From Acidobacteriota bacterium (GTDB taxonomy: Bacteria > Acidobacteriota > Terriglobia > Terriglobales > SCQP01), in the NCBI GenBank assembly GCA_004299485.1, contig SCQP01000008.1, positions 62,001 through 126,000 on the forward strand: a DNA stretch of 64,000 bases, written 5' to 3'. Positions within the stretch are counted from its first letter, which is position 1. Every line of letters starts with the position of its first letter. Positions 30 to 59,276 of the stretch are shown in pieces. A model generated the notes under the pieces. That model worked only from the letters and a program-made list of their open reading frames with translations. It was not told the origin of the DNA and made no database searches. Made by a program: the position numbers and the translations under genes.

Positions 30-1219
30 ATTTCCGCAGCCAATCGGCTGCGGCCTCATTGAAGCAAGGTCACCTACACCAACGACGTGCCGCCAGCGCC
101 ATTTCCGCAGCCAATCGGCTGCGGCCTCATTGAAGCGTAATCGTTGGGTCATTGTATACTCCGTTGTGAGGTATTTCCGCAGCCAATCGGCTGCGGCCTC
201 ATTGAAGCTTCGTTCCAGGCGTTGATGTTGAGCCAGTAGGCGTAATTTCCGCAGCCAATCGGCTGCGGCCTCATTGAAGCCCTTTGTCACCAGCAGCGAT
301 ATATTGCGCTACTGCCTATTTCCGCAGCCAATCGGCTGCGGCCTCATTGAAGCTACGACCTGGGCAAAGTGCTTGAAGCCGTGCCGGTTATTTCCGCAGC
401 CAATCGGCTGCGGCCTCATTGAAGCCCCAAGGAAACCGTCTGGCCCTTGCTGGCGCCGATAATTTCCGCAGCCAATCGGCTGCGGCCTCATTGAAGCAGG
501 CCTTCGATGGCCAGCCCCATCTCAGCGGCGGCCTATTTCCGCAGCCAATCGGCTGCGGCCTCATTGAAGCTGTTCGACACCAATCTGTGCGGCCGCCGCC
601 CCCGCCATTTCCGCAGCCAATCGGCTGCGGCCTCATTGAAGCGTGAACGTCTGCGCCAAGTGCGGCCTTGCGGAACTGATTTCCGCAGCCAATCGGCTGC
701 GGCCTCATTGAAGCTGACCAGGGTGAAGCAGCTCGGCGGGGACGCGAAGCATTTCCGCAGCCAATCGGCTGCGGCCTCATTGAAGCAACTACCAGCAGGA
801 AGGCGCCTACTTCGCCGGGCGTATTTCCGCAGCCAATCGGCTGCGGCCTCATTGAAGCAGATCGCGGTCGTCGGGAATCTCGACGCGGCGGTCAATTTCC
901 GCAGCCAATCGGCTGCGGCCTCATTGAAGCACGCGACGGACGGGGCACCGCAGCCATGGATGCAGGCATTTCCGCAGCCAATCGGCTGCGGCCTCATTGA
1001 AGCCTGCCGTATCAGACGCTATGGGATGAGGACGAAGCCATTTCCGCAGCCAATCGGCTGCGGCCTCATTGAAGCCTCAGCTTTGGACGCGGAGGGAGGC
1101 GGGGCCATGCTATTTCCGCAGCCAATCGGCTGCGGCCTCATTGAAGCGCGTGGCAGGCATGGGTGAGCGCGACGGGGACGGTCATCTCCGCAGCCAATCG
1201 GCTGCGGCCTCATTGAAGC
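30..1219 (+). CRISPR. CRISPR array, 17 repeats and 16 complete spacers
   Basis: Seventeen 36-nt repeats start at 30, 101, 173, 245, 318, 390, 462, 535, 607, 679, 751, 823, 895, 968, 1040, 1112 and 1184, with spacers of 35-37 nt. The repeat starts ATTTCCGCAGCC and ends CTCATTGAAGC. Its middle is a perfect 8-bp hairpin, CCGCAGCC and GGCTGCGG around an AATC loop, and the last eight bases (ATTGAAGC) look like the crRNA 5' handle left by Cas6-type cleavage in type I and III systems. All repeats are identical except the last, which has T to C at position 3. A degenerate last repeat normally marks the trailer end, so transcription should run rightward with the leader left of base 1. Bases 1-29 look like the end of another spacer. 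No cas gene is visible in the window, so the type cannot be assigned. Confidence 0.98.
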
Positions 1220-1816
1220 GGCCGGGTCGCCAGTCTCATGCCACGGGCGGGCAGCGGAAATGCAGGCGGCCGAGACCTGGCTTGCCTGGCAGATTGCAAC
1301 GGAGAGCAAGTCTCCGCTGGCTCGCCGGCGCGCACGCGCGCGGGCGCGGCTTGCCAGCGGCTCGTAAACGCGGGCCGCAACCCTCGGGCTGGACCGCTTG
1401 CACCCCGGCGCGGAGGCGCCCGATCGGCGGCTGGCTACGCCGCGCCGCAGTACCTCGCGGCCAAGGCGGTAGCCAACGTCAAATACGTCCTCGGCGGCAT
1501 GAGCGGCGCGCGCAAGCACGAAAGCACGCGCGACGAGATCTAGAACAAACGCGCACGCATCCCCCGCTCCAGCCAACCAAAGTACAATTTTCCGCCTCTA
1601 ATCTATTGACACCCAATTTCTGCGGAACGCTACCGGCGTGGGCTTCGCGCCGCCCAACGCTCCCACGCGGGCAGCCCGCCGCGCACCATCGCGGGCGCGG
1701 TTCTCCGAAGAACATCCGATCCCTGCTCAGGTTCCTGAGGCCCCCACGCCTTCCGAGCCTTCGCTAGCCACTAACCACTAGCCACTAGCCACTGTTCCCC
1801 TGCCACGGAGGTCTCC
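1220..1816. other. Trailer-side region without a convincing gene
   Basis: About 600 bases between the array and the next gene. An open frame at 1238-1543 has a C-terminal part (near 1430-1540, ending KHESTRDEI) that looks protein-like, but its N-terminal half is compositionally poor and another frame (from 1261, MQAAETWLAWQIATES) looks equally plausible before it stops. This could be the remains of a frameshifted gene. The segment 1634-1700 is rich in short GC palindromes. A heptamer tandem repeat sits at 1752-1793, followed by the ribosome binding site of the next gene (GGAGG, near 1807). Confidence 0.4.
1752..1793. repeat. Heptamer tandem repeat, TAGCCAC family, copy 1
   Basis: Four head-to-tail 7-nt units (TAGCCAC, TAACCAC, TAGCCAC, TAGCCAC) start at 1765, preceded by a unique-looking flank that begins TCCGAGCCTTCGC. 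The flank plus the first repeats (about 35 bases) recur in inverted orientation at 55141-55175 with one mismatch. Confidence 0.85.
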
Positions 1817-2400
1817 ATGGACTTCAAGGCTTCTCCCGCTCAGCGCCGTCTGCTGGACTACATCCACGCAAACCCCTCGCCCCTGCCCACCCTGGGGCTG
1901 TGCCAGTCCGCCAACGTCAGCCGCGCCAGCTTCTACCGCTGGTGCCGCGACCCAAACTTCCGCGCCTGGCTCGGCATCGCCTGGTCCTCCCGCCTGCTCC
2001 TCGACGGTGTGGCCCTGATGAACCAGGCCCGCGCCCAGGCTCCCGACAAGTTCTCCTACTGGCGCGCCCTCTCCGATCTCACCTTCGATCCCAAAGGCCT
2101 CGGCGCCATCGCCAAATGGCAGGAATCGCTCGTCCACCTGCCTCCCGACGCCTTTCTCCCTGGCCCCGGCGTCAAACCCAAACCCAAGCCCAAACCCCCA
2201 GCCGGCCCCCGGCCCCAACCCGACTGGGTGGCCGAGCTCTACAAGGACAGCGAGTTCCCTCCCCCTCCGCCTCCCGAAATCAGCCCCAACGGCTTCCCCA
2301 TCTACCATCCCGAGTCTGTGGAAGAGTGGAACCGCCGTCACGGCTTCGTCGATGAGCCGCCAGACGACCCGAAGGTCTTCAGCGTAGCGCAGCCGGGGAG
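1817..2400 (+). CDS. HTH DNA-binding protein with disordered C-terminus, 3' end undefined
   Basis: The start ATG lies a short distance after a good GGAGG site. Residues 1-50 (SPAQRRLLDYIHANPS, then SANVSRASFYRWCRDP) look like a homeodomain-like helix-turn-helix of the kind found in small phage and transposon DNA-binding proteins such as the phBC6A51 type. Residues 55-110 are probably helical. A low-complexity Pro/Lys stretch follows near residues 120-155 (KPKPKPKPP). After about residue 190 the frame enters four tandem copies of a 111-bp hairpin element and then stays open to 6313 antisense to the next gene, so no natural stop is visible. I end the call where the repeats begin. The real product may read through one or more repeat units (37 residues each), or the gene may have lost its stop through repeat expansion. 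Target and partner are unknown. Confidence 0.5.
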
Positions 2401-2895
2401 TAGGGGCCCCCGGCTAAGCGGCTTGGAGGTCCATAGAGAGCGGGGCACAACGACGCAGTGCGTCGTTTGCCGGCGCAGCCCGGCTGGGTACCCGCACCCA
2501 AATTACGTCAATCCGGTCCGCACCATCCTCCTCCTCCAGCGCGCCCTCAACCCCTCCTACCCCCTCCGCCGTCGTCGCTGCGCCTCCCTCGTAGCGAGGC
2601 CCGGGCCCAGGGGCCCCCGGTCGAGCGGTCCGGACCTCCATAGGGAGTGGGCCGCGTGGCGGAGCCAGTTTGGGCGCCCGCAATCCCGTTGCGCCTCTCC
2701 CGTAGCGAAGCCGAGGCGTAGGGGCCCCCGGCTGAGCGGCCTGGAAGTCCTTGGAGAGCGGGCCGCGCGGCAGCGCCGCGCTGGGTGCCCGCAAGCCCCT
2801 CGCGCCTCCCCAGTAGCGAAGCCGGGGCGTAGGGGCCCCCGGCTGAGCGGCCTGGAAGTCCATAGAGAGCGGGCCGCGTGGCGTAGCCGCGCTGG
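2384..2895 (-). repeat. Four tandem copies of a 111-bp hairpin element (subfamily II)
   Basis: Copies start at 2384, 2591, 2702 and 2813; the last three are spaced exactly 111 bp (37 codons), and a 96-bp extra segment separates the first two. All share GTAGCG followed by GGGGCCCCCGG and a GAGAGCGGG-like box. Next to that box each has a hairpin with a 5-nt loop. In copy 1 it is AACGACG/CGTCGTT (2449-2467); in copy 3 it is GCGCGG/CCGCGC (2765-2781). The stem sequences differ between copies. On the minus strand they resemble the element at 40631, 42731 and 58209. Translated on the plus strand each copy gives a similar 37-residue unit containing RGPRLSGLEV. Confidence 0.8.
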
Positions 2896-2924
2896 GGGAA
2901 CAGGCGCCTGTGGCGCCTGCTCCC
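2896..2924. other. Perfect GC hairpin after the element array
   Basis: CAGGCGCC (2901-2908) and GGCGCCTG (2912-2919) form an 8-bp stem with a TGT loop, extended by GGGA/TCCC on the outside with one mismatch. There is no T-run behind it, so it is not a typical intrinsic terminator. It could still end transcription from either side, or be part of the repeat array. Confidence 0.5.
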
Positions 2925-40533: not shown

Positions 40534-41847
40534 ATGAACATGCCCGTACGGTGCCCGCGCCTATTATGCCTCTGTGTCTGCCTTCCTGGATTGCTGCTCG
40601 GGCCGGCGCGCGCGCGGGCGCAAGCGGCAGCATTGACTGGCGCGGGGCCTGGCGTGGCTGCGCCACACCACCCGCTTGACGCTCGGCCGGGCTGGGGGCC
40701 CCGGGAGCCCCAGCCCGGCCCCCGCGTGCAACCCGCGGGAGACTGCTTATGTCCTGCAGCATGCAAGAAGGTCTTCGGCCCGGAGACGGGGTTCGCCAAG
40801 CGCGGCATTGATTTTGAAGGCTGGCTGCAGCTCGATGGCGCGACGCTGGGCGGCGGACTGAGTCCGGCGCGGGCCTTCGACGGGCAGTATCTGCTGGACC
40901 TGTCTGCCACGTTTGATACGCAGAAGCTGGCGGGGTGGGCGGGCGGAACGCTGCTGGTGGATATGCAGACGCACAGCGGACCGAATATCGTGAGTCAGTA
41001 CGTACCGGCGATTCAGGATCCGGACAATATGGACGCGCACTCGTTTACCGAGATTGACCGCGCCTGGTACCGGCAGATGCTGTGGGGGCAGAAGCTGCAA
41101 CTGCAGGTGGGGCTGATGTATGTGGACGAGCAGTTTTTCACCGTGCCCTACGGGGACAATTTCATTTCGCTGAATTTCTCCTCGGATGCCACGATCAGCA
41201 CGTTCGTGCTGCCCACGTATCCCAGGGGATCGTTTGGCGGGAGCGCGTTTTTTTACCCGGTGAAAGGCGTGTATGTATCGGCGGGCGTGTTCAACGACCA
41301 CAGCGCGGAGCTGCCGTACGATCCGGGCGGGGACTTGTGGGTGACCGAAGAGGGTTGGCAGCATCCGTGGCGTGGGCTGCCGTTCAGCCTGCAGGTGGGT
41401 GCGTGGCATGACACGGGGAGCTTCCAGCCGTTGGCCGGGCCGGTGGGCAGCGTGGTGCCTGGCGCGACGGGCGCGTATCTGGTGGCGGGGCAGAAGCTGT
41501 GGCATCCGGCGAAGGCGCCGGACCGGGGGCTGGGCGCGTTTTTGCAGCTTGGCAGCGCACCGCCGACGGTGGCGGCGATCGACCGGCACGCGGGCGCGGG
41601 AGTGGTATGGACGGGGGCGTTCGACGCACGGCCGCACGACGAGATCGGGTTTGCGTTCAGCGACGGCTCGCTATCACCGCAGGGCGGATTTCTGCACGGG
41701 TTTGAAAATGAGTTTGAGGCGTACTACCAGATTTACGTCTCGAGCTGTCTGACGGTGCAGCCGGATGTGGAGTATTGGCAGCATCCCGGAGGCAGGGCGA
41801 CACCGAACGCCTGGCTCTATTCCATTCGCATGCAACACACGTTTTAG
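40534..41847 (+). CDS. OprB-family carbohydrate-selective porin with in-frame hairpin element
   Basis: The 437-residue protein has a signal peptide (residues 1-30), an insert, then an OprB-type barrel (FEGWLQLDGATLGGG, YVDEQFF, the C-terminal strand WLYSIRMQHTF). Residues about 33-63 (LTGAGPGVAAPHHPLDA and following) are the translation of the repeated element at 40631-40720. OprB porins admit sugars through the outer membrane. The insert sits between signal peptide and barrel, a place where extra residues should be tolerated. It is divergent from the MocR regulator. Confidence 0.88.
   Translation: MNMPVRCPRLLCLCVCLPGLLLGPARARAQAAALTGAGPGVAAPHHPLDARPGWGPREPQPGPRVQPAGDCLCPAACKKVFGPETGFAKRGIDFEGWLQLDGATLGGGLSPARAFDGQYLLDLSATFDTQKLAGWAGGTLLVDMQTHSGPNIVSQYVPAIQDPDNMDAHSFTEIDRAWYRQMLWGQKLQLQVGLMYVDEQFFTVPYGDNFISLNFSSDATISTFVLPTYPRGSFGGSAFFYPVKGVYVSAGVFNDHSAELPYDPGGDLWVTEEGWQHPWRGLPFSLQVGAWHDTGSFQPLAGPVGSVVPGATGAYLVAGQKLWHPAKAPDRGLGAFLQLGSAPPTVAAIDRHAGAGVVWTGAFDARPHDEIGFAFSDGSLSPQGGFLHGFENEFEAYYQIYVSSCLTVQPDVEYWQHPGGRATPNAWLYSIRMQHTF
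40631..40720 (+). repeat. Palindromic element, subfamily I, copy 1
   Basis: Begins CATTGACTGGCGCGGGGCC. First hairpin GGCGTGG-CTGCG-CCACACC (40651-40669). Second hairpin with a perfect 13-bp stem, GGCCGGGCTGGGG (40685-40697) and CCCCAGCCCGGCC (40708-40720). It is read in frame within the porin gene. Confidence 0.9.
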
Positions 41848-42614
41848 CCCTGGTCGCGGAGACTGCGGACGGCGAGGGCGAAGCAGGCGAGGGCGAAGAT
41901 GACGAAGGCGAGGGCTTCGAGAGCGAGGCGCGAGGGCGTGCCGAGGCCGATGGAACCGTAGCGGAGCACATCCACCTGCCAGGTGACAGGGTTGGCGCGG
42001 GCGGTGAGGCGCAGCCAGCGGGGCAGCGGCGCGAGCGGATAGAACATGGAGCTGACGAACATCAGCACGAAATAGGAGGCGTTGACGAGACTGTTGAAGG
42101 CGTCGTTGCGGCGGATGCGCAGGGCGAAGATGGCATAGAAGAAGAACCAGCCGGCGGTGCCGGCGATCACCGCGATGGCGAGGATGGGGAGCAGGCTCCA
42201 GCGCAGATGGATGCCCAGCAGCAGGCAACCGGCCGCGACAGTGATGGCGGCCTGGAGGACGGCGACGCAAACGTTGAACAACACCTTGCCCAGCAGGTAT
42301 TCGGAACGGCGCATGGGGTAGGTGAGCATTTCGAGGAAAATGCCGTTGTCGCGGTCAAGAAAGAACGACCAGGAGCTGTTGACGGCGACGCCAAGGCTGG
42401 CCATGCCGAGCACGCCGGCGAGGAAAAAGGAATTGTAATCGACGCCCTTGCCGAGGGCGGGCGCAGCGCCGAGCGCGGCGTTCACGCCGATGCCGAAGAC
42501 GAGCAGGTAGAGAAGCGGATAGAAGAGATCGAAGAAGAGGAAAGTGGTGTTGGTGGCGCGAATCTTGCTCTCTCGATAAAACACCGCCGCGAGGGGACCG
42601 TATCTCACCGGCAT
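41844..42614 (-). CDS. ABC-2 type transporter permease
   Basis: The 256-residue membrane protein has six helices, including TFLFFDLFYPLLYLLVFGIG, SSWSFFLDRDNGIFLEMLTYPM and AGTAGWFFFYAIFAL. The segment TYPMRRSEYLLGKVLFN is typical of ABC-2 exporters. It is the downstream partner of the ATPase at 42605-43648 and overlaps it by 10 bases. The substrate is unknown. Its 3' end overlaps the porin gene by 4 bases. Confidence 0.9.
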   Translation of the reverse strand: MPVRYGPLAAVFYRESKIRATNTTFLFFDLFYPLLYLLVFGIGVNAALGAAPALGKGVDYNSFFLAGVLGMASLGVAVNSSWSFFLDRDNGIFLEMLTYPMRRSEYLLGKVLFNVCVAVLQAAITVAAGCLLLGIHLRWSLLPILAIAVIAGTAGWFFFYAIFALRIRRNDAFNSLVNASYFVLMFVSSMFYPLAPLPRWLRLTARANPVTWQVDVLRYGSIGLGTPSRLALEALAFVIFALACFALAVRSLRDQG

Positions 42615-43648
42615 GCGGTTGCCTGCGTGAGCTGGACGAAGATGTCTTCCAGGCTGGCACCGCGGACTTCCACGCGGAGGACGCGGCCGCGGCGGGCGAG
42701 CGCGCTGACCAGATCGAGAATCTGCGCCTCCATTGACTGGCGCGGGGCCTGGCGTGGCTGCGCCACGCCACCCGCTTGCGACTCGGCCGGGCCGGGGGCC
42801 CCGCGGTCCCCAACCCGGCCGAGTCCGGTCTTCAGGGTGATTTCGAGGGTGTTGCCTTCGAGGTCGCAGCGCAGGGGGTACAACGCGGCAGCCGCTTCGG
42901 CGATGCCAGGCGGCAAGGTCTCGAAGGTGAGTGAAATTTCATAGACGCCGGCGGATAGAAGCTTGAGATCCTGCAAGCTGCCGCGGGCGGCCTGCTTGCC
43001 GTGATGCATGATGAGGATGTCGTCGCAGAGTTCCTCGGCCTCGCTCAGGATCTGGGTGGTGAGGATGATGGTGCGGCCGCGGGCAGCTTCCTCGCGCACG
43101 TAGCCCATGATGGCGCGCTTGAGGATGGGGTCCATGCCGGTGGAGAACTCGTCGAGGAAGATAACGGGCGTGTCGGCGAGGAAAACTTTGGCGACTTGCA
43201 CGCGGCGACGGGAGCCGCCGCTCAAATCCTGCACTTTTTGCTCGGCGTAAGGCGTGAGCTGGAATTTTTCCATAACCGCGGCGGCACGGCGGCGGGCTTC
43301 GCGGGTGTCAAGACCACGAAAGCGGGCGTAAGTAAGCAGGTTATCGCGGACGCTGAGGAGCAGCTCGGCCGCGGTTTCCTGCAAGACGGTGGCGATGCGG
43401 CGGCGGACTTCCAGCGGGCGCGCGGCCACGTCGAAGCCGGCGACGCGGGCGCTACCACTGGTCGGACGCAGCAGAGTGGTCAGCACCTTGAGCAGAGTGG
43501 TTTTGCCGGCGCCGTTGGGACCGAGCAGACCGAAGATGGCGCCGCCCGGGACGGAGAAGCTGATGCCATCGACAGCCCGCACAGCGGGCCTGCCGCGGCG
43601 CTCATAAACTTTAATGAGGTTGTCGACCTCGAGAGCAGGCTCGGCCAT
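42605..43648 (-). CDS. ABC transporter ATP-binding protein with in-frame hairpin element
   Basis: About 347 residues from MAEPALEVDNLIKVYERR. Walker A GPNGAGKT is at residues 43-50, the signature LSGGSRRR near 142, and Walker B VIFLDEFS at 162-169. Residues about 277-306 (GRVGDRGAPGPAESQAGG and following) are the antisense translation of the element at 42731-42820, which interrupts the C-terminal accessory domain. It is the partner of the ABC-2 permease. A tRNA-Ser lies 10 bases before its start. Confidence 0.92.
   Translation of the reverse strand: MAEPALEVDNLIKVYERRGRPAVRAVDGISFSVPGGAIFGLLGPNGAGKTTLLKVLTTLLRPTSGSARVAGFDVAARPLEVRRRIATVLQETAAELLLSVRDNLLTYARFRGLDTREARRRAAAVMEKFQLTPYAEQKVQDLSGGSRRRVQVAKVFLADTPVIFLDEFSTGMDPILKRAIMGYVREEAARGRTIILTTQILSEAEELCDDILIMHHGKQAARGSLQDLKLLSAGVYEISLTFETLPPGIAEAAAALYPLRCDLEGNTLEITLKTGLGRVGDRGAPGPAESQAGGVAQPRQAPRQSMEAQILDLVSALARRGRVLRVEVRGASLEDIFVQLTQATACR
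42731..42820 (+). repeat. Palindromic element, subfamily I, copy 2
   Basis: Nearly identical to the copy at 40631 over the first 80 bases. First hairpin GGCGTGG-CTGCG-CCACGCC (42751-42769) is perfect. Second hairpin has 11 of 13 pairs. It lies inside the ABC ATPase gene on the opposite strand, in frame. Confidence 0.9.
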
Positions 43649-43658
43649 AGCGGGGGAG

Positions 43659-43748
43659 TGGCGGAGAGGGAGGGATTCGAACCCCCGGTACCCGTTAAGG
43701 TACACACGCTTTCGAGGCGCGCGCCTTCAACCACTCGGCCACCTCTCC
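43659..43748 (-). tRNA. tRNA-Ser (CGA)
   Basis: Acceptor GGAGAGG pairs with CCTCTCC; the anticodon loop CTCGAAA gives CGA, reading TCG. A long variable arm, typical of class II serine tRNAs, is present. CCA is encoded. Confidence 0.96.
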
Positions 43749-54848: not shown

Positions 54849-54879
54849 GGGTCCGCAGAGTTGAAGCGAATTCATCGAG

Positions 54880-54950
54880 AGGGTCCCCAACACGGCGCAT
54901 GCGGCCTATTGAGAGCCGGCCGCGCGGCGCGGCCGCGCTGGGTGCCCGCG
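54880..54950 (-). repeat. Palindromic element, subfamily II, single copy
   Basis: Shares GAGAGC and GCGCTGGGTGCCCGC with the copies near 2.8 kb. The hairpin is GCGCGG-CGCGG-CCGCGC (54922-54938). It is directly upstream of the SRP RNA promoter. Confidence 0.8.
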
Positions 54951-54972
54951 ATTTAGGGAATGCGGCCCGCGA

Positions 54973-57234: not shown

Positions 57235-57849
57235 ATGGAACTTGCGCCGCCGCTGAAACGCCTGATCGATGCCCTGCATCGGCTGCCCGGCGTGGGGCAG
57301 AAGTCGGCACAACGGATTGCGTTTCATCTGCTGAACGCGCCGGAGGAGCAGACGCGCGAGCTGGCGGAGGCGGTGGCCACGCTGCGGGAGCAATTGCACT
57401 TCTGCTCGGTGTGCAACAACATCACTGACTGCGATCCATGCGGGTACTGCGGGGATGCGCAGCGTGATGCGTCGGTGGTGTGCGTGGTTGAGGAACCGCA
57501 TAACATTGTCGCGGTGGAGAAATCGGGACAATTTCACGGGCAGTATCACGTGCTGGGCGGTGCAATTGCGCCGCTGGCGGGGATTGGGCCGGAGCAGTTG
57601 AAGATTCCTTCGCTGCTGGCGCGGCTGCGGGCCACGGGCGCGGGCGGCGAGCCGGTGGTGCGGGAGATCATTATAGCCACCGATCCCAACGCCGAGGGCG
57701 AGGCGACGGCGCTGTATCTGGCGCGGCTGCTGAAGCCGCTGGGCGTGCGGGTGAGCCGCATCGGGATGGGGATTCCGGTGGGCAGCGAGATCGAGCACGC
57801 CGATGCGGTGACCATGTCGCGGGCGCTCGAAGGGAGACAAGAACTGTGA
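57235..57849 (+). CDS. recR: Recombination protein RecR
   Basis: The 204-residue protein has the HhH region ([17 protein letters not shown]), a C4 zinc finger ([16 protein letters not shown]) and the Toprim domain ([23 protein letters not shown]). It acts with RecF/RecO in gap repair. It follows ybaB by 14 bases and overlaps rimO by 4 nt. Confidence 0.96.
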
Positions 57850-59276
57850 GCGAGAGCGAGCCGAAAACGGTGGGGTTTGTCAGCCTCGGCTGCCCAAAGA
57901 ACCTCGTGGACTCCGAGGTGATGATGGGCATGCTGCAGAAAAACGGCTGGCGCGTCACCGCCGATGCCAGCGACGCCGATGTGCTGGTGGTGAATACGTG
58001 CAGCTTCATCGAACCAGCGCAACGCGAAAGCATTGACACCATTCTGGAGATGGCCGCGCAGAAGAAGAACGGGCGCGCGAAGCGGCTGGTGGTAGCCGGA
58101 TGCCTGGTGGAGCGGTTCCGGGGCGAACTGCAGAAGGAGATGCCCGAGATTGATGCGCTGATCGGGACGAATGAACTGCAGCAGATTGAAGCGGCGTGCT
58201 CCGGGACCTCGACTGGCGCGGGGCCCCGCTCGGCTGCGCCGAGCGACCCGCTTAGGTCGCTGCTGCCGATCCTGCCGCAGGATTTTTTTGATCCCAGTCC
58301 GGCGGCGCCGTATCTGTACGATGACCTGACGCCGCGGCTGCGGGCGACGCCGAAGCATTCGGCGTATGTGAAGATCGCCGAAGGGTGCGATCATCCGTGC
58401 AGCTTTTGCGTGATTCCGAAGTATCGCGGCCGCTTCCGCAGCCGGCGGTTTGAGTCGGTGGTGAACGAGGCGCGACGGCTGGCGGGCGAGGGCGCGCGCG
58501 AGCTGGTGCTGATTGGGCAGGACACGACCTGCTACGGCGAAGACCTGGGGCTGAAGGACGGACTGGCGGCGCTGCTCGGGCGGCTGGCGGGCGTGGCGGC
58601 GGAGTCCGAGACGCTGCGCTGGATCCGGACGCTGTATTTTTATCCAAACAAGGTCAAGCAGCCGCTGCTTGACACGATCGCGGCGCACCCGGAGCTGTGC
58701 AAGTACGTGGACATGCCGCTGCAACATGCCGCCGCGGGCGTGCTGAAGCGGATGAAGCGCGGCGGGTCGGGGGAGATTTTTCTGAAGCTGATCGAGCGGA
58801 TTCGGGCGACGATTCCGGGCGTGGCGCTGCGGACGTCGTTCATCGTGGGCTTTCCGGGCGAGACTGAGGCGGAGTTTGAGGAGCTGTGCACGTTCGTGCG
58901 CGAGGTCGAGTTTGACTGGATGGGCGTGTTCGCGTACTCCGATGAGGCGATTAATCAGGCGGTGCATCTTGAGGGCAAAGTGCCGCAGGCGGTAATCGAG
59001 CAGCGCAAGAAGAAGCTGATGCAGATGCAGCGCGCGATCTCGCGGCGGCGGCGCAAGGCAATGATCGGGCGGACCGTGCCGGTGCTGGTGGAAGGCCCGA
59101 GCAGCGAGACCGAGCTGCTGTGGGAAGGCCGGATCGAGGGGCAGGCGCCGGAGATTGACGGCAAGGTACTGATCAACGATTGTGCCGAGGGTACTGAGCT
59201 GCGGACCGGGATTTTGGCGCGGGCGGAGATCACCGGAGCGCAGGATTACGATCTACTCGCACGGCTCGTACAATAA
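57846..59276 (+). CDS. rimO: Ribosomal protein S12 methylthiotransferase with in-frame hairpin element
   Basis: The 476-residue radical SAM enzyme methylthiolates S12. The N-terminal UPF0004 domain begins [16 protein letters not shown], and the radical SAM cluster is C181, C185, C188 ([10 protein letters not shown]). The TRAM domain is at the end ([15 protein letters not shown]). Residues about 122-138 ([17 protein letters not shown]) are the translation of the element at 58209-58260 and lie between the two domains, where RimO normally has a short linker. It starts at GTG overlapping recR. Confidence 0.94.
58209..58260 (+). repeat. Palindromic element, subfamily I, short copy in rimO
   Basis: Begins TCGACTGGCGCGGGGCC. 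The hairpin is CGCTCGG-CTGCG-CCGAGCG (58227-58245). The loop equals that of the other subfamily I copies, while the stem is wholly different but perfectly paired. Confidence 0.9.

Follow-up and report, generated by a model that had tools for sequence, protein, structure and literature searches.

The Rickettsia palindromic elements (RPEs; Ogata 2000, 2002, as cited in PMC10969869) are described in that account as dispersed palindromes of approximately 100-150 bp, found in frame in many unrelated protein genes, and as non-autonomous repeats whose mobilizer is unknown. Intragenic GTAG/CGTC REPs are hairpin repeats with subfamilies that carry alternative complementary stems; their insertions have been reported in uvrA, DnaE2, tRNA synthetases and other genes (in Opitutus terrae, R. 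conorii and Xanthomonas), the CGTC REPs have no dedicated transposase, and Acidobacteria are not among the phyla reported to contain GTAG/CGTC repeats (PMC3733652). REPINs are extragenic, RAYT-linked REP doublets, in which two palindromes build one mobile unit of ~70-110 bp (PMC3116915). As far as they are described in PMC6006769, the structures associated with class-3 TnpA (Y1) transposases in Acidobacteria are atypical hairpins of high copy number with a CnGA foot, located beside class-3 tnpA genes and served by an enzyme specific for single-stranded DNA.

Here we describe a family of palindromic elements from the draft genome of a member of Acidobacteriales (3.30 Mb, 22 contigs, 98.8% complete), analysed from one 64-kb stretch of this genome (contig C8:62001-126000, hereafter the window), together with the stretches around other copies and sampled 10-kb pieces of the genome. 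The family is dispersed, its copies are inserted in frame into genes for which the relatives have empty sites, its unit length has a mode of 96 nt, and its strand bias is correlated with GC skew. Compared by description, it resembles RPEs in comprising many dispersed palindromes, in frame in unrelated conserved genes, at sites that are empty in relatives; it differs from them in phylum and probably in sequence, in its typical unit, which measures 96 nt, contains two hairpins and has 78% GC, in the use of several reading frames, and in the orientation bias with respect to GC skew that is shown here. With the GTAG/CGTC REPs it shares in-frame palindromic insertions in conserved genes, among them uvrA. 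However, REP units are 20-40 nt long and possess a GTAG or CGTC foot; the acidobacterial family lacks such a foot and is of the wrong size, and therefore is not a GTAG/CGTC REP. REPINs are similar in size and in the combination of two palindromes, but here the two hairpins differ from each other and a large share of the copies lies in genes. The class-3 TnpA-linked structures, which are also acidobacterial, abundant and atypical, are, judging from their published description, the most likely cousins, although no Y1 transposase was found here. The preliminary description of the window, which knew no named element with these features in Acidobacteriota, was thus right about the exact family, but related kinds (RPEs, intragenic REPs, and the class-3 TnpA-associated structures of Acidobacteria) do have names. 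The best reading of the data is that of a new family of non-autonomous mobile palindromes, restricted to one lineage, without the GTAG/CGTC tag and without a resident RAYT.

Architecture, copy number and host range

The preliminary description listed eight copies of a palindromic family, divided them into two subfamilies, and noted that the flanking boxes are more conserved than the stems. All eight copies are present in the sequence (Table 1), and covariance models built from 24 copies of subfamily A (R1) and from 21 copies of subfamily B (R2) detected none beyond them in the 64-kb window. Genome-wide, further copies were found: at E<=0.001 R1 matched 102 places and R2 matched 49, a few of which overlap; the family comprises ~100 A and ~45 B elements, roughly 140 copies in 3.3 Mb. 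These numbers are well above chance: a 15-mer seed with <=2 mismatches gave 126 genomic matches, compared to 37 for the reversed control. The greater conservation of the boxes was confirmed, as was the division into A and B, with the correction that, in the orientation of the window, homology between the two emerges only if the minus strand is taken for B. The genome also holds A/B intermediates.

Table 1. Palindromic elements of the window and the genes that contain them
Feature	Position	Strand	Basis or detail
A copy, 3'-truncated, inside and in frame with rimO	58207..58255	+	ORF continuous; RimO homology on both sides
rimO-type methylthiotransferase gene, insert in inter-domain linker	57846..59276	+	RimO structure 4jc0
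A copy, full length	42731..42827 (model 42731-42820)	+	hairpin 1 42742-42775, hairpin 2 42785-42820
ABC transporter ATPase gene, element in frame antisense near C-terminus (GRVGDRGAPGPAESQAGGVAQPRQAPRQSMEA)	42605..43705	-	open frame, codon usage
A copy, full length, in frame just after likely signal peptide	40631..40727 (model 40631-40720)	+	
Putative secreted porin-like ORF with the 40631 copy	40534..41847	+	ORF, codon usage
B copy, hairpin 1 with nested AACGACGCACTGCGTCGTT palindrome	2386..2502	-	
B copy, diverged, first of three in ~111-nt-spaced array	2593..2688	-	
B copy, same ~111-nt-spaced array	2704..2799	-	
B copy, same ~111-nt-spaced array	2815..2912	-	
Diverged B copy between fabH and the SRP RNA gene	54854..54956	-	

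In the layout common to both subfamilies, an ATTGA-type start at the 5' end is followed by CGCGGG and a short bulge; next come a variable stem capped by a CTGCG-type tip, then CCCGCT and a spacer, and finally the second hairpin. Each element contains two hairpins, the first of which reads GCGGG-(bulge)-stem-CTGCG-type tip-stem-CCCGC, while the tip of the second is formed by the GGGGCCCC box. The typical A unit of 96 nt can be written as ATTGAYTGGCGCGGGG - hairpin 1 - CCCGCTTG - hairpin 2 - NNCGCGT, and the element consensus ends after CCCGCTTA. The three A copies of the window, all on the plus strand, share the seed GACTGGCGCGGGGCC. The copy at 58207 retains the 5' end and hairpin 1 (stem CGCTCGG/CCGAGCG); its covariance-model match spans 58207-58279(+), of which only the part up to ~58255 is intact. 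A conserved terminal GTAG/CGTC is absent from the alignments A1-A4, GACG being found in A1-type copies only, between the hairpins. The median identity of A copies to their nearest neighbour is 92%.

Among the 42 copies with recognizable ends, 25 measure 96 nt from ATT to GCGT and four represent a nested-palindrome variant of 117 nt (+21 nt); some A3-type copies are 94-95 nt long, hence the exact ends of the element are uncertain by 1-2 nt. The 96 nt of the unit correspond to 32 codons, and the A consensus, as read off the sequence, is open in one sense and three antisense frames (four of six). This number is not above that of shuffled sequences of the same composition and can be ascribed to the high GC content; the multiple-of-three length may be due to chance or to selection.

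The host range is restricted as far as tested. R1 matches each of the four other genomes of the genus and, within the same family, three of three genomes of genus g3 and one of two of genus g5; it has no match in 46 genomes of the neighbouring family, and none in ~298 other genomes of the class, which were searched at reduced sensitivity (14 candidates scored per genome, so that the negative result carries little weight outside family f1). In a scan of 84,980 species genomes, an exact 40-nt A3-type pattern occurs in only six Acidobacteria(les) MAGs. A stricter A pattern occurs in none of the named genomes scanned, and the element pattern was absent from the viral contigs of the collection searched.

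Copies of B are located at the ends of contigs C3, C6, C7, C12 and C16; the assembly thus breaks at the B repeat, the copy number of which is probably undercounted. Several B copies of this genome lie within tandem duplications of ~100 to 230 bp, which also take in unique flanking sequence. Elsewhere in the window (900-1222) there is a CRISPR-like array in which a ~34-nt repeat, CGCAGCCAATCGGCTGCGGCCTCATTGAAGC, occurs at least five times with a spacing of 72-73 nt.

Strand bias and mode of movement

The A copies keep the same orientation across hundreds of kilobases, and 55 of 75 neighbouring pairs are alike, compared to 37.2 expected (p<=5e-5); strand runs are absent from B. The sense strand of the A flanks has a GC skew of +0.067 (se 0.009) and is positive in 75 of 100 cases, and the corresponding skew of the B flanks is positive in 26 of 33. 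In the window the B copies are antisense to the G-rich strand, and the strand relation of A and B is not simple. The orientation of A also follows the skew measured in 10-kb stretches that were sampled separately (53 agree and 23 disagree, p=8e-4). Since the coding strand of the window has a slightly negative skew, the direction of genes does not explain the bias of A.

A positive GC skew identifies the strand with the leading-strand sequence, and this strand is also the lagging-strand template. The strand runs of A together with its G-rich sense strand suggest insertion into the single-stranded lagging-strand template, in analogy to the transposases of the IS200/IS605 group, for which such targeting is described in PMC6006769. 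Alternatively, GC skew could represent a local target preference rather than replication. We consider it likely that the copies are non-autonomous mobile palindromes of one Acidobacteriales family, which insert as folded single-stranded DNA and are moved in trans. According to this scenario, the element, when single-stranded, would fold into a pair of bulged hairpins, and the folded strand would insert at replication forks with its sense strand preferentially in the G-rich strand; this would proceed without a detectable target duplication, for which no signal was found in a scan of sizes 2-9. The enzyme acting in trans would presumably be of the HUH/Y1 type or another one specific for single strands.

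A less likely alternative is that the copies are REP/REPIN elements whose mobilizing RAYT (TnpA-REP) is absent from the draft genome. The size range, the hairpins and the single-stranded-DNA logic are alike; by the account given in PMC6006769, class-3 TnpA occurs in Acidobacteria together with atypical structures of high copy number (~600 in Solibacter); a search of 13 relatives revealed Y1 genes in genomes G002, G003 and G006; and because contigs break at B copies, a repeat-flanked enzyme locus could have been lost from the draft. However, the conserved terminal tag is absent, and the Y1 transposase (PF01797) was found neither in the 98.8%-complete genome studied here (G000) nor in G001 and G004, all three of which contain many copies of the element, and no element lies near any of the six Y1 loci retrieved from the element-bearing genomes G002, G003 and G006. 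The B-flanked contig C3 was considered as a hidden REPtron; its examined part contains apparent metal-efflux genes and no transposase.

We regard as rather doubtful the possibility that the single-stranded palindrome has evolved a frame-neutral unit (32 codons, 39 in the nested variant), by which it spreads through genes, essential ones included, at about the unselected rate in a genome without Y1, and that it is mobilized by a novel enzyme or by the host replication machinery itself. A classical MITE derived from a DDE insertion sequence, with short terminal inverted repeats recognized in double-stranded DNA and with the parent IS lost, is improbable: the ends show a weak inverted similarity discernible by eye (GGCGCGGGGCC versus the reverse complement of GGCCCTCGCGT), and loss of the parent is common among MITEs, but the absence of a target duplication of any size from 2 to 9 argues against it, and a strand-orientation bias is unexpected under double-strand cut-and-paste.

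Complementary stem changes

The stems had been described as wholly different and yet complementary, and this was taken to indicate selection for a hairpin in RNA or in single-stranded DNA. Compensatory changes are indeed present: double-sided changes affect 7 of 27 pairs in A, compared to 2.6 (sd 1.1) in shuffles, and 5 of 22 pairs in B, compared to 1.6 (sd 1.0), and in both subfamilies they also exceed controls with slid partners. About a dozen different, fully complementary inner stems occur (e.g. GCGTGG, GCTCGG, GAGCGG, GCCTGG, GCGCGG, GTGCGG and GCCGGG). The changes largely mark subfamilies, so that the number of events is smaller than the number of cells. However, one of the stems initially listed, AACGACG/CGTCGTT, did not arise by base-by-base change; it belongs to a separate 25-nt palindrome module, GTAAACGACGCACTGCGTCGTTTAC, which substitutes for the 3' arm of hairpin 1 in approximately ten A and B copies, and most genomic sites of which fall within A or B elements.

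Of the two molecules proposed, single-stranded DNA is supported by the strand bias, but RNA is not. A structured RNA (a regulatory hairpin of a 3'-UTR or 5'-UTR, or a small RNA), the selected fold of which causes the stems to co-vary, would account for the excess of double-sided changes over shuffles and slid controls and for the stability of the folds. Nevertheless, we find it quite improbable: the sense strand shows no excess of G-U pairs over A-C mismatches (59 versus 112 in A, 15 versus 64 in the relatives, and 22 versus 17 in B), a search of Rfam at both gathering and permissive thresholds found nothing similar, the fold z-scores of four sequences tested (-1.1 to -4.4) are mostly modest, copies in genes occur on either strand, and the strand bias tracks GC skew rather than gene direction. 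Returning to the folded single-stranded DNA that we favor, the complementarity of the arms would be maintained by processing or recognition of the hairpin at the DNA level and not by a function in RNA. At least one A copy has an inverted hairpin tip (GGC-GCA-GCC versus GGC-TGC-GCC), from which we infer processing at the DNA level.

In-frame insertion into genes

The main feature of the A family is frame-neutral insertion, which the preliminary description missed, as it did the location of the window's A copies inside genes. According to a codon-usage classifier trained on the window, which places 95% of 210-nt windows in the right frame and may err near gene ends, 28 of 99 classifiable A copies and none of 34 B copies lie in frame inside genes (Fisher p=1e-4). 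In simulated random insertions, 39% of the 96-nt consensus sequences were called in frame, compared to <=1% for lengths of 97 or 98 nt. Since 16 of the 36 best-scoring A copies are in frame, young copies appear to reside in genes at approximately the rate anticipated without selection. The in-frame share is lower in the relatives (6 of 60). Nine of the in-gene copies are sense and 19 antisense, which fits the 1:3 ratio of open frames, and every open frame is used, resulting in different peptides such as ALTGAGPGVAAPRHPLDARPGWGPREPQPGLR and GRAGALGVPSPAERQAGGGAQPRQAPRQS.

The host proteins, some of them named by database search and others by eye from the sequence, include UvrA, SMC, PheT (with two inserts), DeoB, RNase R, RimI, SRAP/YedK, a DnaE-type polymerase, TreZ, HflX, a sulfite-reductase-like protein, RimO and an ABC ATPase. 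Solved structures align on either side of the insert in UvrA, SMC, DeoB, PheT and RimO. Flanks from the same genus match without the insert for DeoB, RNase R, SRAP, RimI, the reductase, TreZ, a C45-type peptidase and PheT, and the comparison of SMC and UvrA with relatives likewise forms part of the evidence for empty sites. The net insert amounts to 32 aa in DeoB, SRAP, RimI, TreZ and a sortilin-like gene, and to 31-33 aa elsewhere, where the length of the loop itself varies. In the window, the RimO structure (4jc0) matches the product at residues 9-118 and 163-444, with 44 residues between the matches compared to 18. For the ABC ATPase with its insert, single-sequence structure prediction gave a mean pLDDT of 38, too low to be informative.

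Several further observations concern individual genes. In pheT (C10:22528-25231) the two in-frame copies are of the A3 type and lie ~215 bp apart. In rimO, just after the truncated element (58269-58290), a GATCCTGCCGCAGGATTTTTTT hairpin with a T-run resembles an intrinsic terminator within the coding frame. The uvrA gene of the relative G004 encodes an element-like peptide, GASLSGTRAAGTLEPAPVND, just before the N-terminal motif of UvrA, suggesting that uvrA may be hit at another site in another species.

With a GC-rich unit whose length is divisible by three and four of six frames open, an element landing in a working gene, even an essential one, would add 32 codons with no frameshift, presumably translated and often tolerated. 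That the insert is instead useful, a domesticated linker for which the in-gene copies are kept, is highly improbable: it would agree with the recurrence in genes of DNA repair and translation (UvrA, SMC, PheT, RimO), seen also for REPs (PMC3733652), but all open frames are used and encode several unrelated peptides, the proportion of copies in frame differs little from that under insertion without selection, and the inserts examined are missing from the same sites in congeners.

The family described here supplies numerous examples of protein-coding palindromes whose sites are empty in congeners, and we found no such report for the phylum Acidobacteriota. The quantitative agreement between the length of the element, its open frames and its share in genes makes it testable that palindromic selfish DNA feeds loops into conserved proteins. 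Moreover, the orientation bias offers a handle on the movement of those RPE- and REP-like elements that have no known transposase.
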